A stretch of 64,000 bases of DNA from assembly GCA_026391835.1 (NCBI GenBank), contig JAPLDF010000075.1, positions 186,001 through 250,000 on the forward strand. Reading direction: 5' to 3'. Positions 7,476 through 60,905 of the stretch are shown here, one piece after another. The DNA comes from Bacteroidota bacterium (GTDB taxonomy: Bacteria > Bacteroidota > Bacteroidia > Bacteroidales > FEN-979). Under the pieces are notes generated by a model. The model saw nothing but the letters and a program-made list of their open reading frames with translations. It had not been told where the DNA came from and ran no database searches. A program made the position numbers and the translations under genes. Position 1 is the first letter of the stretch. The number at the start of each line of letters is the position of its first letter.

Positions 7476-8671
7476 ACCTTCTTGAATATCAACGACGTAT
7501 CATTCCCCCCGAACCCGAACGAATTCGACATCACTGCATTCACTGCGACATTTATCATCAGTTTTTCAACAGGCGAGAAGTTTAATTCTGCAATACGTTC
7601 TTTAAAATTCAGGTTTGGCCAGATTACCTGGTTTTGCAGGCATAACACCGAAAGGATTGCTTCAATGGAACCAGCTGCACTGGTAGTATGTCCTGTAAAT
7701 TGTTTGGTTGAACTTACCATGGGCATTTTGTCAACGAACAGTCTTTCGATGGCATGCCCTTCCGAAAGATCGTTGTTGTCGGTTCCGGTACCATGGGCAT
7801 TCACATAGTCGATGTCGCCCGGTGCCAGTCCGCTCATATCAATCGCCTCTTTCATGGCCAGGTAGGCACCAATCCCGTCAGGGGAGGAGGCCGTCTGGTG
7901 ATAGGCTTCACATGCATTGCCCCAGCCAACCAATTCCGCAAATGGAACATTCCCGGTTTTTGCAAGGCTCTCTTCCGACTCAAGCACGAGGTATGCAGCG
8001 CCTTCACCAAGATTGATCCCGGCGCGATGCTGGTCAAATGGTTTACAAGGTTCCTTGTCGAGGATTTTCAATGCATTGAAACCATTGAGATGAAATTTTG
8101 TCAATGACTCGCTGCCACCGGCCAGTACACGGTCAAGGCGGCCCGAACGGATCATCCGTGCACCGAGCATGATGGCATTGGCTGCCGATGAACATGCCGT
8201 GCTGATGGTTGTCACAAATCCGGTGATCTCCAGCAACTGGGCGATTTTTTCGGTGCTGTCGGCACAATCATAGGAATCGATGAACACATTGCGCGTATCA
8301 TTGGTGAGGAAATCGTTGTAATAGAATTCACTACGATCCATTCCACCAACGGTGGTCGCTGAGATCAATCCTGTTTTAAGTTCCCGGTGATCATCCAGCC
8401 GGCCGTGTTCAAAAGCTTCACGGGCTGCTATCATTCCCAGCAGGGCATTCCTCGAATAGCCGTCGACAGGAGAGATCCCTGCCATGACAAAGAGTTCAGC
8501 CAGTGTTTTTGGCACTTCTCCTACAAGCAATTCATCTTTGAGAAGGGTTTCAACATAACGAATCCTTCCTGTTCCGGGCTTTGACCCGAGCAGGGAGGAG
8601 AGAGTTTCCTCAATATTGTTGCCGATGCAGGAAATGATGCCATATCCGGTAATGAATATCCGCTGGGGCAT
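7385..8671 (-). CDS. Beta-ketoacyl-ACP synthase (FabF type)
   Basis: 428 residues with a complete condensing-enzyme triad: Cys160 (S-T-A-C-S-S), His293 (N-A-H-G-T-G-T) and His328 (F-T-G-H-T-T-S). The domain ends with the usual G-F-G-G-N-D-T-S-L-I-F-K-K near 398. The last 30 residues are an Asn/Ala-rich tail (N-A-S-N-E-N-N-A-S-N-A) encoded by the CAATG satellite and are not part of the family. The product condenses acyl chains with malonyl-ACP in the pigment pathway. It is followed downstream by the nucleophile-less KS-like gene and preceded by an ACP gene 6 bp away, so the three are probably co-translated. Confidence 0.85.
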   Translation of the reverse strand: MPQRIFITGYGIISCIGNNIEETLSSLLGSKPGTGRIRYVETLLKDELLVGEVPKTLAELFVMAGISPVDGYSRNALLGMIAAREAFEHGRLDDHRELKTGLISATTVGGMDRSEFYYNDFLTNDTRNVFIDSYDCADSTEKIAQLLEITGFVTTISTACSSAANAIMLGARMIRSGRLDRVLAGGSESLTKFHLNGFNALKILDKEPCKPFDQHRAGINLGEGAAYLVLESEESLAKTGNVPFAELVGWGNACEAYHQTASSPDGIGAYLAMKEAIDMSGLAPGDIDYVNAHGTGTDNNDLSEGHAIERLFVDKMPMVSSTKQFTGHTTSAAGSIEAILSVLCLQNQVIWPNLNFKERIAELNFSPVEKLMINVAVNAVMSNSFGFGGNDTSLIFKKVNASNENNASNAINENNVCNAGNTGKARGE

Positions 8672-52124: not shown

Positions 52125-52288
52125 TACGTAACACTTCTTGCCGGTTTGCCATTCTGCAATTTTGCAATTTTAAGTGTGCTCACAAAAGTAATGAAATAGG
52201 AAAATGCCACTAAGTCACCAAGGCACAAAGAGGCACATTGAGACACAAGGTGTTAAATATCTGAAGTATACCCTTGGACAACCTTTTT

Positions 52289-52352
52289 GACTTTGTGACT
52301 TTGTGACTCTGTGACTCTGTGACTCTGTGACTCTGTGACTTTGTGACTCTGT
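52289..52352. repeat. GACTYTGT tandem repeat
   Basis: Eight perfect-phase units of 8 bp (GACTTTGT or GACTCTGT) in the gap 52125-52471. Nearby, 52201-52250 has degenerate GGCACAAAG/AGTCACCAAG units of a common intergenic family. No gene is seen in this gap. Confidence 0.85.
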
Positions 52353-52471
52353 GACTTAATAACAAATAACTACTTTCCCATGTGGACACCATTTTACAAT
52401 ATAACATTCGAAATATTTCCGTTGAAAACCATATCCGCAGCGAACAGTAAAAATTATGAACCGCAGGGAGA

Positions 52472-56536: not shown

Positions 56537-57289
56537 TCATTTTTGATGAAACTTATCATGCTCCCATTGTTTGGGATTATTTTTTATATAATTGACAATG
56601 TTTTGGAAAGATTCTTCATTCCTGATAATATGGTCATAAAAACGCGATTGCCAGTAAAAAAAATCAAACCCGTTTTTATTGCACCAACGTTTCACTGAGG
56701 CTTTGTATTGATTGATGATTACAGAAACCGAACCGGCTTTTGGTTTTCCAAACAGGTTGGGTTGTGGTTGTATGGCCGGTGGTGGCGACAAACCTGGCGG
56801 TGGGGACACGGCTGGCGGTGGGGACACGGCTGGCGGTGGGGACACGGCTGGCGGTGGGGACACGCCATGGCGTGTCCCTACGGGACCATCACCGGTTGTC
56901 GGTAGGGCCATGCCATGGCATGGCCCATCATCGCATGGCCCACCATCGCATGGCCCATCATCGCATGGCCCACCATCGCATGACCTGTAACCTATAAATC
57001 TATCCTCTTTATCAAATTTCTGTTCACCATTTAAAATCAAAATCAAATGAACATGATTTGGCATGACCACATGTTCAGCAACCAAAGCATGGCTGAAATG
57101 TGTTGGCACTTCCTTTAAAAACTTTTCCGCAATAGTGCCGGCTTCATTCAGGTGCATTTCTCCATTGACAATCTTTCCGAAATAGTGCCGGTGGTCCTTT
57201 GTACAAATAGTAATAAAGTATAATCCCTCAAGGGTGTAATCGTACCCTTTCAAACGTTTTGAATGACGATGGTGTGTTACGGGAATCAT
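56537..57289 (-). CDS. RAYT-type Y1 transposase with REP insertion in frame
   Basis: 250 residues. The HUH motif is N-H-V-H-L-I (His79, His81) and the catalytic tyrosine is Tyr195 in I-N-Q-Y-K-A-S. The end W-Q-S-R-F-Y-D-H-I-I-R-N matches REP-associated tyrosine transposases (TnpA_REP/IS200-like), usually ~170-200 residues. Between about residues 101 and 178 it carries extra Asp-Gly-Pro-Cys units and S-P-P-P-A-V units that do not belong to the family; these come from repeats and two palindromes at 56794-56978. The enzyme nicks and moves single-stranded REP elements. Confidence 0.8.
   Translation of the reverse strand: MIPVTHHRHSKRLKGYDYTLEGLYFITICTKDHRHYFGKIVNGEMHLNEAGTIAEKFLKEVPTHFSHALVAEHVVMPNHVHLILILNGEQKFDKEDRFIGYRSCDGGPCDDGPCDGGPCDDGPCHGMALPTTGDGPVGTRHGVSPPPAVSPPPAVSPPPAVSPPPGLSPPPAIQPQPNLFGKPKAGSVSVIINQYKASVKRWCNKNGFDFFYWQSRFYDHIIRNEESFQNIVNYIKNNPKQWEHDKFHQK
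56794..56865. repeat. 18-bp satellite in the RAYT gene (S-P-P-P-A-V units)
   Basis: Four units of CTGGCGGTGGGGACACGG/C; the last runs into the left half of the first palindrome at 56857. Confidence 0.8.
56857..56926. repeat. Pair of inverted REP-like palindromes (BIME-like)
   Basis: Palindrome 1 (56857-56878) and palindrome 2 (56905-56926) are perfect 22-bp inverted repeats with the same core GCCATGGC and the same GGG/CCC ends, but different, internally paired arms (ACAC/GTGT versus CCAT/ATGG). GTAG precedes palindrome 2 (56902-56905) and, on the other strand, palindrome 1 (CTAC at 56878-56881), as the recognition tetranucleotide does in E. coli REPs. They face each other in inverted orientation with 26 bp between. 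Confidence 0.85.
56919..56978. repeat. 15-bp satellite in the RAYT gene (D-G-P-C units)
   Basis: Four units of CATGGCCCAYCATCG, starting inside the right half of palindrome 2 and extending away from it. Confidence 0.8.
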
Positions 57290-57789
57290 GATTTCGTTCT
57301 TTTTGTTTTCCTTAAATGAGTATTGCCCGGGTTTTCCATATTCAGTTTATTGCTTAATCGGGAAAAATGCAAAAGGTAATATGGCAGGTGAATCTTTTTC
57401 AATTGTAAAATGACCTTGCAGGGCTATTGCAGGGTAACTTCCTTCCATCCAATTTTGCACCATCACCTGCATATCCTAAATTATTCTATTATGAGAAAAA
57501 TATCGGTATTGATGATTCTGCTTTTGCTCAATGGCAGTGTATTGTTTTCACAGGTTGGCATTAACACCGACGGCAGCGCTCCAAATAGCGCAGCCATGCT
57601 CGATGTCAAGTCCACAACCAAAGGGCTGCTGCCTCCTCGGATGTCACATGCAGAGATGAATGCCATTGCAAGTCCTGCATTTGGCCTCATTGTTTACTGC
57701 ACCGACTGCGGAGCAACCGGGCTCGGCACCCTCTGCCTGTGCGTGGCTGGCACCTGGTACATGTTGGATGCAAGCTGCATGACCCCTTT

Positions 57790-58815
57790 ATCACCGGTAA
57801 CAGGAGCGCATGTGCCTGCTGCAACTCAAATCGCCTGGAACTGGAACACCGTATCCGGTGCCACAGGCTACAAATGGGGCACGACCAATGTATATGCCTC
57901 CGCCACCGACATGGGAACAGCGGTGACCAAAACCGAAACCGGGCTGACCTGCAATACGGCATACACCCGCTACGCATGGGCCTACAGCGCCTGCGGGAAC
58001 TCCACGCCGGTTACCCTGACACAAATAACTTCGCTCAGTCCTCCGGCAGTGCCCACATCCGGGACCCATGTACCTGCAGCAACCCAGGTCATCTGGAACT
58101 GGAACACAGTATCCGGTGCCACAGGCTACAAATGGGGCACGACCAATGTATATGCCTCCGCCACCGACATGGGAACAGCGGTGACCAAAACCGAAACCGG
58201 GCTGACCTGCAATACCGCTTACACCCGCTATGCATGGGCCTACAGCGCCTGCGGGAACTCCACGCCGGTTACCCTGATACAAACAACTTCGCTCAGCCCG
58301 CCCGCTCAGCCCGCCCGCAGTACCCACATCCGGAACCCATGTACCGGCAGCAACCCAGGTCGTCTGGAACTGGAATACTGTATCTGGTGCCACAGGCTAC
58401 AAATGGGGCACGACCAATGTCTATGCTTCCGCCACCGACATGGGAACAACTGTGACCAAAACCGAAACCGGGCTGACCTGCAATACCGCTTACACCCGCT
58501 ATGCATGGGCCTACAGCGCCTGCGGGAACTCCACGCCGGTTACCCTGATACAAACAACTTCGCTCAGCCCGCCCGCAGTGCCAACTTCCGGCACTCATGT
58601 GCCTGCTGCAACTCAAATCGCCTGGAACTGGAACACCGTATCCGGTGCCACAGGCTACAAATGGGGCACGACCAATGTCTATGCTTCCGCCACCGATATG
58701 GGAACAGCGGTGACGAAAACCGAAACCGGGCTGACCTGCAATACCGCTTACACCCGCTATGCATGGGCCTACAGCGCCTGTGGGAACTCCACGCCGCTAA
58801 CGCTGACACAATCAA
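57790..58815. repeat. Four 258-bp tandem Fn3-like units
   Basis: Matching points (the TGGAACTGGAA core) lie at 57836, 58094, 58365 and 58623, i.e. spacings of 258, 271 (258+13) and 258 bp. The units are nearly identical at the DNA level, which favours copy-number change and gene conversion. Confidence 0.85.
58290..58315 (+). repeat. 13-bp tandem duplication (CGCTCAGCCCGCC x2)
   Basis: Two direct copies at 58290-58302 and 58303-58315. The equivalent place in the next unit (~58560) has a single copy. Confidence 0.9.
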
Positions 58816-59522
58816 CCGCAGCTTGTGCGGCTAGTTGCGGTTCTCCCATCATAATCAACCATGTTGCCGGAAGTGCCGCTCCTGTTTCTAAAACCGTCAC
58901 ATATGGTACAGTTACGAATATTCCCGGGGAAACAACAAAGTGCTGGATAACCAGTAACCTCGGAGCAGATCAGCAGGCAACCGCTGTTGATGACATTACC
59001 GAAGCCTCGGCAGGCTGGCATTGGCAGTTTAACCGCAAACAGGGATACAAGCATGATGGAACAACCCGTACGCCAAATACTGCCTGGAATACCTATATTG
59101 ACGAAAACTCCGACTGGATTCCGGCCAATGACCCGTGTGTCTCGGAACTTGGAGGCACCTGGCGTATCCCAACCTATACAGAGTGGTTCAATGTGGACGA
59201 TATCGGGGCATGGGGCAACTGGACCGGCCCATGGACTTCAGCCTTAAAACTCCACGCAGCAGGTCAACTGGCCCCGTGGGACGGATCTTGGATCAACCGT
59301 GGTTACAGTGGTACCTATTATACCAGCAATCAAAGCACGACACACATAGGCTGGAGCATGTATTTTACAAGTACGGTCAGTGGTGTCTTTGGTGCGGGGA
59401 ATGGCAAGGAGAGCGGGTGGTCGTTGCGATGCATCAAATAGCTGGACTTTGATGACCGGCACCAACCGGGATCGGGTGCATGAAAACATCATGCTGTTAA
59501 ACCTGGTTGCCTGGTAAAAAAA

Positions 59523-60458: not shown

Positions 60459-60560
60459 GTGGCCCTCGGTTTCTTCTCCATGTATCTCCGTGTAACAATG
60501 AATTACACGGAGGGCCACAGAGGATTCACAGAGGGCCACAAAGGATTCGCAGAGGGCCAC
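60459..60560. repeat. Degenerate CACAGAGGGCCACAGAG repeat block
   Basis: Copies around 60505, 60525 and 60545 separated by GATT, plus a small hairpin TCCGTGTAA / TTACACGGA just before them. Same family as 1048-1096. Confidence 0.6.
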
Positions 60561-60564
60561 CCAG

Positions 60565-60718
60565 CCTTTAGGAACGATACAGCCAGCCTATAGGCACGAT
60601 ACAGCCAGCCTATAGGCACGATACAGCCAGCCTATGGAAACGATATAGCCAGCCTATAGAAACGATATAGCCTGCCTATAGAAACGATATAGCCTGCCTA
60701 TAGAAACGATATAATCAT
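60565..60718. repeat. 22-bp tandem repeat, seven units
   Basis: Units CCTATAGGCACGATACAGCC-AG and variants (CCTATAGAAACGATATAGCC-TG), exactly 22 bp each from 60565. No spacers of other sequence, so not a CRISPR array. It lies ~190 bp before the cyclase promoter, within the gene-free gap 60133-61065. Confidence 0.85.
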
Positions 60719-60905
60719 ATCGCAGAAACGATTGTTTATCAATGTTTTACGATCAATATAACGTCATGTCAGCAGGCCGGAAAGTATGTCGCATTGCCGG
60801 TTATGCATTGAATTTGAATGCCATAACAGTGTTATTGTTCGGTTAAAATATGTAATAAACAATCAGTCAATTGCCTTTTCATTGTTATGGAAATCAAATA
60901 ATTGC

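Follow-up and report, generated by a model that had tools for sequence, protein, structure and literature searches.

An intact RAYT gene of a Bacteroidota bacterium that probably inherited the pair of REP hairpins within its reading frame

The TnpA-REP enzyme of Escherichia coli recognises single-stranded REP hairpins at GTAG. For TnpA-REP subclass 2.4, the sections of Quentin et al. (2018, PMC6006769) devoted to it describe in-frame REP insertions between HuH and Y, and give as its marks NH[IFV]H, a conserved WQ, YIxNNP and a variable insertion between beta3 and alphaC, in which short repeats are mentioned. As presented in those sections, the subclass occurs in Bacteroidetes and Cyanobacteria, among others, its REP is of the canonical long form, footed by GT[AG]G and with a stem closed at the bottom by three G-C pairs, and REPs flank the gene within 1 kb in the large majority of cases, not in all. 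REPs have also been reported inside many other genes, GTAG REPs included, in the relevant part of Di Nocera et al. (2013, PMC3733652), where REP hairpins are discussed as possible down-regulators of RAYT expression. An in-gene REP pair in a RAYT is a known kind of arrangement, published for subclass 2.4. Three aspects of the present case go beyond the published accounts that we found, as far as the parts seen of these papers extend: in-gene REPs that are the sole copy found in their genome, satellites that look younger than the pair, and the seeding of satellites by half a REP both in and outside RAYTs. For REP-seeded satellites we found no account among the titles and abstracts that searches of open-licence papers brought up.

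The DNA analysed here, called the window below, is a stretch of 64,000 nucleotides from a Bacteroidota bacterium (GenBank assembly GCA_026391835.1, contig JAPLDF010000075.1, positions 186,001 to 250,000 of the forward strand). From comparison of sequences we put at roughly 0.78 the probability that it holds an intact RAYT of the subclass 2.4 kind (group 4) whose frame includes its own REP hairpins as a pair passed on by descent, a REPIN/BIME unit. Its features are listed here; A1 and A2 are alignments of the window RAYT with relatives, of 26 and 47 rows.

56537..57289, minus strand: RAYT / TnpA-REP gene, 250 aa, open frame intact, AF2 core pLDDT about 96-98
57047..57055, minus strand: HUH motif codons H79-V80-H81, both histidines being the same in every row of A1 and A2
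56588..56590, minus strand: codon of Y234 in the YIKNNP motif, likely the catalytic tyrosine and unchanged throughout A1 and A2
56774..56985, minus strand: whole REP-derived insert, about residues 103-172, in the disordered linker 87-187, outer limits set by eye
56857..56878, minus strand: REP palindrome 1 (P1), second in gene sense, GGGACACGCCATGGCGTGTCCC, with GTAG at 56878-56881 (minus strand) facing P2 and outer foot CCAC
56879..56904, minus strand: 26-bp spacer between P1 and P2, similar by eye in the dispersed copies C32 and C86:360k
56905..56926, minus strand: REP palindrome 2 (P2), first in gene sense, GGGCCATGCCATGGCATGGCCC, with GTAG at 56902-56905 (plus strand) facing P1 and outer foot GATG
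56794..56864, minus strand: 18-bp satellite running outward from the outer half of P1, 3.9 copies, 100% matches
56913..56982, minus strand: 15-bp satellite running outward from the outer half of P2, 4.7 copies, 90% matches

A first-pass annotation of the window had called the frame a tyrosine transposase of the RAYT kind, and profile, motifs and fold bear this out. Against NCBIfam NF047646 (REP_Tyr_transpos) the window protein reached 51 of the required 80 bits, and against Pfam Y1_Tnp 20.5 of the required 23, each score being split into two stretches with the insert between; NF047646 was matched at E 0.001 or better by 47/47 rows of A2. The motifs MPNHVH, WQ (213-214) and YIKNNP (234-239) are invariant or nearly so in both alignments, and H79, H81 and Y234 are invariant in both the 26-row and the 47-row alignment. 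The residue first taken as catalytic, Tyr195, falls outside the conserved columns; judging from the aligned sequences, Y234 is most likely the catalytic tyrosine instead. A sequence search of solved structures returned a weak match to E. coli TnpA-REP 4ER8 (E 0.012, residues 212-241 on 93-122, 30 residues). Provided that this stretch is ungapped, Y234 corresponds to 4ER8 position 115, and we take Y115 to be the catalytic residue of the E. coli enzyme. With the same proviso, the residues that contact GTAG in E. coli TnpA-REP according to the available part of Quentin et al. (2018, PMC6006769), namely W94, Q95, E100, H101 and R104, have W213, Q214, D219, H220 and R223 as their window counterparts. 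By analogy with the E. coli enzyme, the window enzyme would recognise single-stranded P1 and P2 hairpins at GTAG.

A PDB fold search ranked ISDra2 TnpA first and 4ER8 third, with IS608 TnpA also among the nearest. With TnpA of IS200/IS605 the window RAYT shares the HUH/Y1 fold, going by this search, and hairpin substrates, as predicted here; the hairpins of IS200/IS605 lie at the element ends, whereas those of the window lie inside the gene. In the AF2 model the HUH strand covers residues 79-86 and the next helix residues 188-205, and residues 87-187 between them are all coil of low confidence. Set beside subclass 2.4, which is RAYT group 4 of Bertels, the window protein shares the NHxH, WQ and YIxNNP motifs, and its coil between strand and helix lies where the variable insertion is described. 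The gene also has the in-frame REPs and the long-REP form, with GTAG and then GGG...CCC at the stem base in both P1 and P2. The flanking REPs of the subclass were absent within 1 kb of the gene, as judged from perfect, loop-free palindromes with an arm of at least 8, but membership is still compatible with this since the paper gives flanking REPs for a majority only. Palindromes of that type in the window are P1, P2 and an unrelated one at 8066. Besides this absence, what sets the window gene apart from the subclass is its two satellites, grown outward from palindrome halves.

Within the frame the sequence agreed with most of what had been annotated. P1 and P2 are both perfect 22-bp palindromes in inverted orientation with the common core GCCATGGC. 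In gene sense the insert reads 15-bp satellite (56982 to 56913), P2, 26-bp spacer, P1 and 18-bp satellite (56864 to 56794), and each satellite, as first described, starts inside one palindrome and then extends outward. The GTAG had been placed at the outer feet of the hairpins; there is one per palindrome and both face inward. A search of the window with GTAGGG-N4-GCCATGGC-N4-CCC, allowing up to 3 mismatches, gave 4 matches, P1 and P2 each counting once per strand, where 100 shuffles averaged 0.16. The reading of the palindromes as REPs and of the pair as BIME- or REPIN-like is supported. A likeness also exists to Rickettsia palindromic elements and other intragenic REPs, as covered in part of PMC3733652, in that a palindrome is translated in frame in a protein gene; in the window, unlike in those cases, it is a transposase gene that hosts the palindrome, which belongs to the GTAG class.

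Other repeats of the window deserve mention. At 57410-59441 a gene with repeats of about 258 bp (86 aa) has its reading continued in an ORF of another frame (58440-59441), which suggests a frameshift in the repeats or an assembly error. Adjacent tandem arrays of 21 bp (CACAGAGGGCCACAAAGGATT) and 22 bp (CCAGCCTATAGAAACGATATAG, 7 copies) lie at 60506-60732, and an 8-bp array, TGACTCTG, with 8.6 copies at 52288-52356.

The palindromes do have other copies in the window's genome. An exact search with GTAGGG-N4-GCCATGGC-N4-CCC yielded 10 matches at 8 distinct places, and the reversed control 0; a looser pattern with up to 2 mismatches located 11 palindrome sites, the window included. As in a REPIN or BIME, two inverted REPs enclose a short spacer and further genomic copies exist; the differences are that this family is low-copy (9 sites match the looser pattern exactly) and that one pair lies in a transposase coding frame. 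Inverted pairs occur at C32, C86:360k and in the window, the first two outside RAYTs and with a spacer that by eye resembles the window's. A RAYT origin of these dispersed C32 and C86 pairs was considered and rejected, tblastn with N- and C-terminal RAYT pieces finding none at E 0.001. Satellites started by a palindrome are also present at C14, C22, C32, C86:360k and C41, with periods of 15, 18, 21, 18 and 15 respectively. The non-coding loci C86:358713 and C86:360253-360319 are similar, and 358713, as judged by eye, is without P2 and the spacer, between two GTAG sites, which is the pattern that excision or recombination between REPs would be expected to give.

The same genome (G000) has further RAYTs with palindromic sequence in frame. 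In the second (L022, G000:C11, 1477-2067) a different loop, immediately ahead of the WQ motif, contains two in-frame hairpin-forming repeats of the GGGCGGGTT...AACCCGCCC type; close upstream of this gene is an 18-bp satellite whose palindrome has no GTAG foot. The third (L024, G000:C76, 1483-2508, a 342-aa frame) has its in-frame palindromes, two of the form GTAGAGACGCCATGCATGGCGTCTCTAC, together with long repeats on the upstream side of the HUH motif, at a site unlike that of the window gene.

How old the pair is bears directly on the first explanation offered for it, that within this lineage the transposase, or slippage on it, supplied its own gene with the BIME pair, an event that, as first proposed, could tie the enzyme's activity to its copy number. 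Similar pairs dispersed in the same genome would suit such a recent event, as would the gene's apparent arrival. Around a related response regulator no RAYT was found within 1.5 kb at any of nine loci (0/9; L147-L155, 65-81% identity), and at L151, the only one of the nine to share the downstream gene, the regulator is directly followed by a homologue of the 57491 gene; on these comparisons the window RAYT looks like a newcomer at this locus. Congeneric genomes point the other way for the pair itself. The exact REP pattern occurred in 10 of 19 genomes from the genus, a number that counts the one the window comes from, at 70 sites in total. All 70 were checked with RAYT pieces, some of the others being at contig ends, and at least 18 lie in a RAYT or a remnant of one: 2 in the window, 2 in G423:C253, 2 in G422:C157, 2 in G427:C207, 3 in G424:C56 and 7 in G425. 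The REPs occupy the same linker place in the window, G423:C253, G422:C157, G427:C207, G424:C56 (as a triplet) and four G425 copies, and REPs 47-48 bp apart recur in G422, G423, G425 and G427. Congener RAYTs thus already share the place, the very observation that had been named as speaking against a recent insertion, and in-gene REPs are common in the wider group (77/93 linkers, below), so we regard recent self-insertion as very improbable.

Some of these copies need qualification. In G425, 7 of 10 REPs are in RAYT copies, of which several end at contig ends and two, C325 and C204, are decayed; the C386 pair, which matches the query only within the insert itself, is not counted among the 7. The order of the two palindromes is reversed in G422, and in G424:C56 whole 48-bp REP units of one type are repeated; these two cases imply that the unit has been rearranged or replaced rather than simply inherited. 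Copies of the clade without the exact pattern are G413:C37, G424:C80, which has variant palindromes and lacks its N-terminal half, and G415:C293, truncated where the contig ends. Satellites beside the pair are found in the window and, with an 18-bp period, in G423, G427 and G425:C204; they are absent in G422 and G425:C325, while G425:C219 and C233 end at a contig boundary where the P1 array would lie. From these alignments the REP pair looks old and inherited and the flanking satellites young, since 15- and 18-bp arrays are not common to all copies.

The congeners also confirmed that the arms differ between palindromes and nevertheless stay paired. In 17 in-gene cores, arm position 5 is TA in 8, CG in 8 and a mismatch in one, and position 8 is AT in 9 and CG in 8, so that changes at two positions are paired on both sides. 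Part of this variation is the difference between P1 and P2, and P2 itself varies, from GGCCATG (window, G425) to GGACATG (G423, G427). Stems kept through two-sided changes would be expected if the palindromes fold in mRNA or single-stranded DNA and the enzyme or RNases thereby limit expression, and down-regulation of RAYTs by REP hairpins is among the topics raised in the accessible part of PMC3733652. We nevertheless consider such a regulatory hairpin quite unlikely, as a mid-frame position, one to three copies per gene and a varied distance from REP to HUH (median 20 codons) argue against a fixed geometry.

The wider survey of relatives took the best 80 of 492 confirmed candidates. In these, a footed palindrome (GTAG/CTAC, arm at least 9) lay in the frame of 42/80 RAYTs, 52 palindromes in all, and the 45 that could be placed were all between HUH and Tyr, the other 7 being unplaceable; the frame was not open across the whole match in 5/80. 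Of the 38 cases with GTAG in this sample, 30 had it in phase 0, 8 had it in phase 1 and none (0/38) in phase 2, where it would give a TAG stop. A second test, which begins at a GT[AG]G foot and then requires pairing, was applied to 110 loci, of which 93, the window among them, were evaluable and 17 not. It found a footed hairpin in 77/93 HUH-Tyr linkers (46 perfect, 31 near) and none in 16/93; the 80 relatives are the best-scoring candidates and the query alignment itself contains insert-bearing proteins, so that the resulting 83% may be high for the subclass. Footed hairpins were held by 24/1082 segments of the same length from other long same-strand open frames, a frequency about 37 times lower, and by 0.6% of 4650 codon shuffles. 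RAYTs of another bacterial class, that of G399, had the hairpin in 0/29 evaluable linkers (30 NF047646 loci, linkers of 57-70 residues), and 1/29 had a near hairpin elsewhere in the gene. By a simpler test, perfect hairpins stood at 38/76 GTAG[AG]G sites in linkers and at 38/448 sites more than 1.5 kb away, the latter count being above zero because dispersed REPs are among those sites. Finally, the sequence distance of the arms tracks that of the RAYT core (Mantel r 0.473, p 0.0001, n=76), as shared descent or co-evolution would give.

The strongest open rival to an inherited pair of the gene's own REPs is plain tolerance, under which REPs enter many genes and stay wherever a loop allows it, as Rickettsia palindromic elements do, and the REP has no role. 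Intragenic GTAG REPs are indeed on record for other genes in the part of PMC3733652 seen, the linker is disordered in the AF2 model, and the 24/1082 control segments with a footed hairpin show that such sequences can lodge in other frames. The excess in linkers over those segments tells against it, as do the covariation of arms with the transposase core and the genomes described next, in which the RAYT site is the sole one found. Descent alone could yield both the sole-copy sites and the covariation with no role needed, and we hold plain tolerance to be a real possibility, if not the course we favour.

Eighteen genomes were chosen for an in-gene REP of, or near, the form GTAGRGACNNNGCATGCNNNGTCYC. 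Exact searches for this form matched in 16/18, and with up to 2 mismatches the in-gene site was the sole one in 5/18 (L067, L068, L075, L114 and L123). The mismatch search was run on 12 of the 13 genomes with two or fewer exact sites per strand, and the 6 others each had two or more; 5/12 would be biased by the choice of low-site genomes, and 5/18 is the fair figure. The five sole-site genomes are four isolates and one MAG, all at contig level, and repeats may drop out of draft assemblies. Only the GTAGRGACNNNGCATGCNNNGTCYC form is detected by the pattern, and L114 and L123 have, close downstream of the gene, a palindrome whose arms are different. Of the 6 genomes with more exact sites, G397, G400 and G407 have the in-gene arm type as their main one and G395, G398 and G399 do not; in G401 the arms of the sites outside the gene differ from the in-gene ones. 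These genomes may have several RAYTs each. These disagreements of type are a further point on the side of plain tolerance. G040 has only two sites of the window pattern, allowing 1 mismatch, and each falls within a RAYT frame; by eye, a 12-bp array adjoins one of the two, and the array-bearing frame is without its N-terminal part.

It is tempting to see in the in-gene REP a master copy. RAYT and REP in one frame would then be a minimal self-contained selfish unit. As one gene it would pass from genome to genome, giving rise to dispersed REPs under favourable conditions and otherwise surviving without a dispersed family. We find this doubtful, its probability being lowered by the sole-copy count of 5/18 and by the disagreement of in-gene and genome-wide types in some genomes. 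Returning to the inherited pair, REPs in the linker may survive because this loop lacks order and lies at a distance from the active site, and as they would travel with the gene, a transferred RAYT would bring its own substrate.

The satellites can be considered separately. Slippage at the hairpin, re-copying half an arm and the foot, may have made them, and inside a gene only units in multiples of three would survive. The annotation had stressed that all units keep the frame, and this is true, 15 and 18 being multiples of three, as were the periods of 21/21 and 7/7 arrays in RAYT frames by two counts. Outside RAYTs the figures were 6/10 and, by a second count that includes four arrays from the window's genome, 10/15. 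Non-coding arrays of the window's genome were multiples of three in 6/6, including the array ahead of the C11 RAYT, whose palindrome has no GTAG foot, and 18 is the commonest satellite period beside REPs outside RAYTs. The frame-keeping periods do not by themselves signal selection, and multiples of three as proof of it were dropped because non-RAYT arrays are often multiples of three too. One congener RAYT, G413:C37 (L216), has an open frame from which the HUH motif is missing, its upstream coding sequence passing directly into a satellite of 18 bp, as though recombination between satellite units had deleted the active site.

For the origin and spread of REPs, RAYTs with an in-frame REP offer a clean test. 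Genomes in which the in-gene REP is the sole copy found allow the question whether the gene alone can seed dispersed REPs, and silent changes could break the hairpin and leave the protein untouched. The satellites show that a hairpin in a coding frame can make fast-evolving, low-complexity protein, and in-frame satellites may carry a risk, to which the G413 copy points, where the gap left by the HUH motif abuts the satellite. Should the doubtful master-copy reading prove true, the ‘extragenic repeat’ would at its root be an intragenic, single-copy part of the transposase gene.
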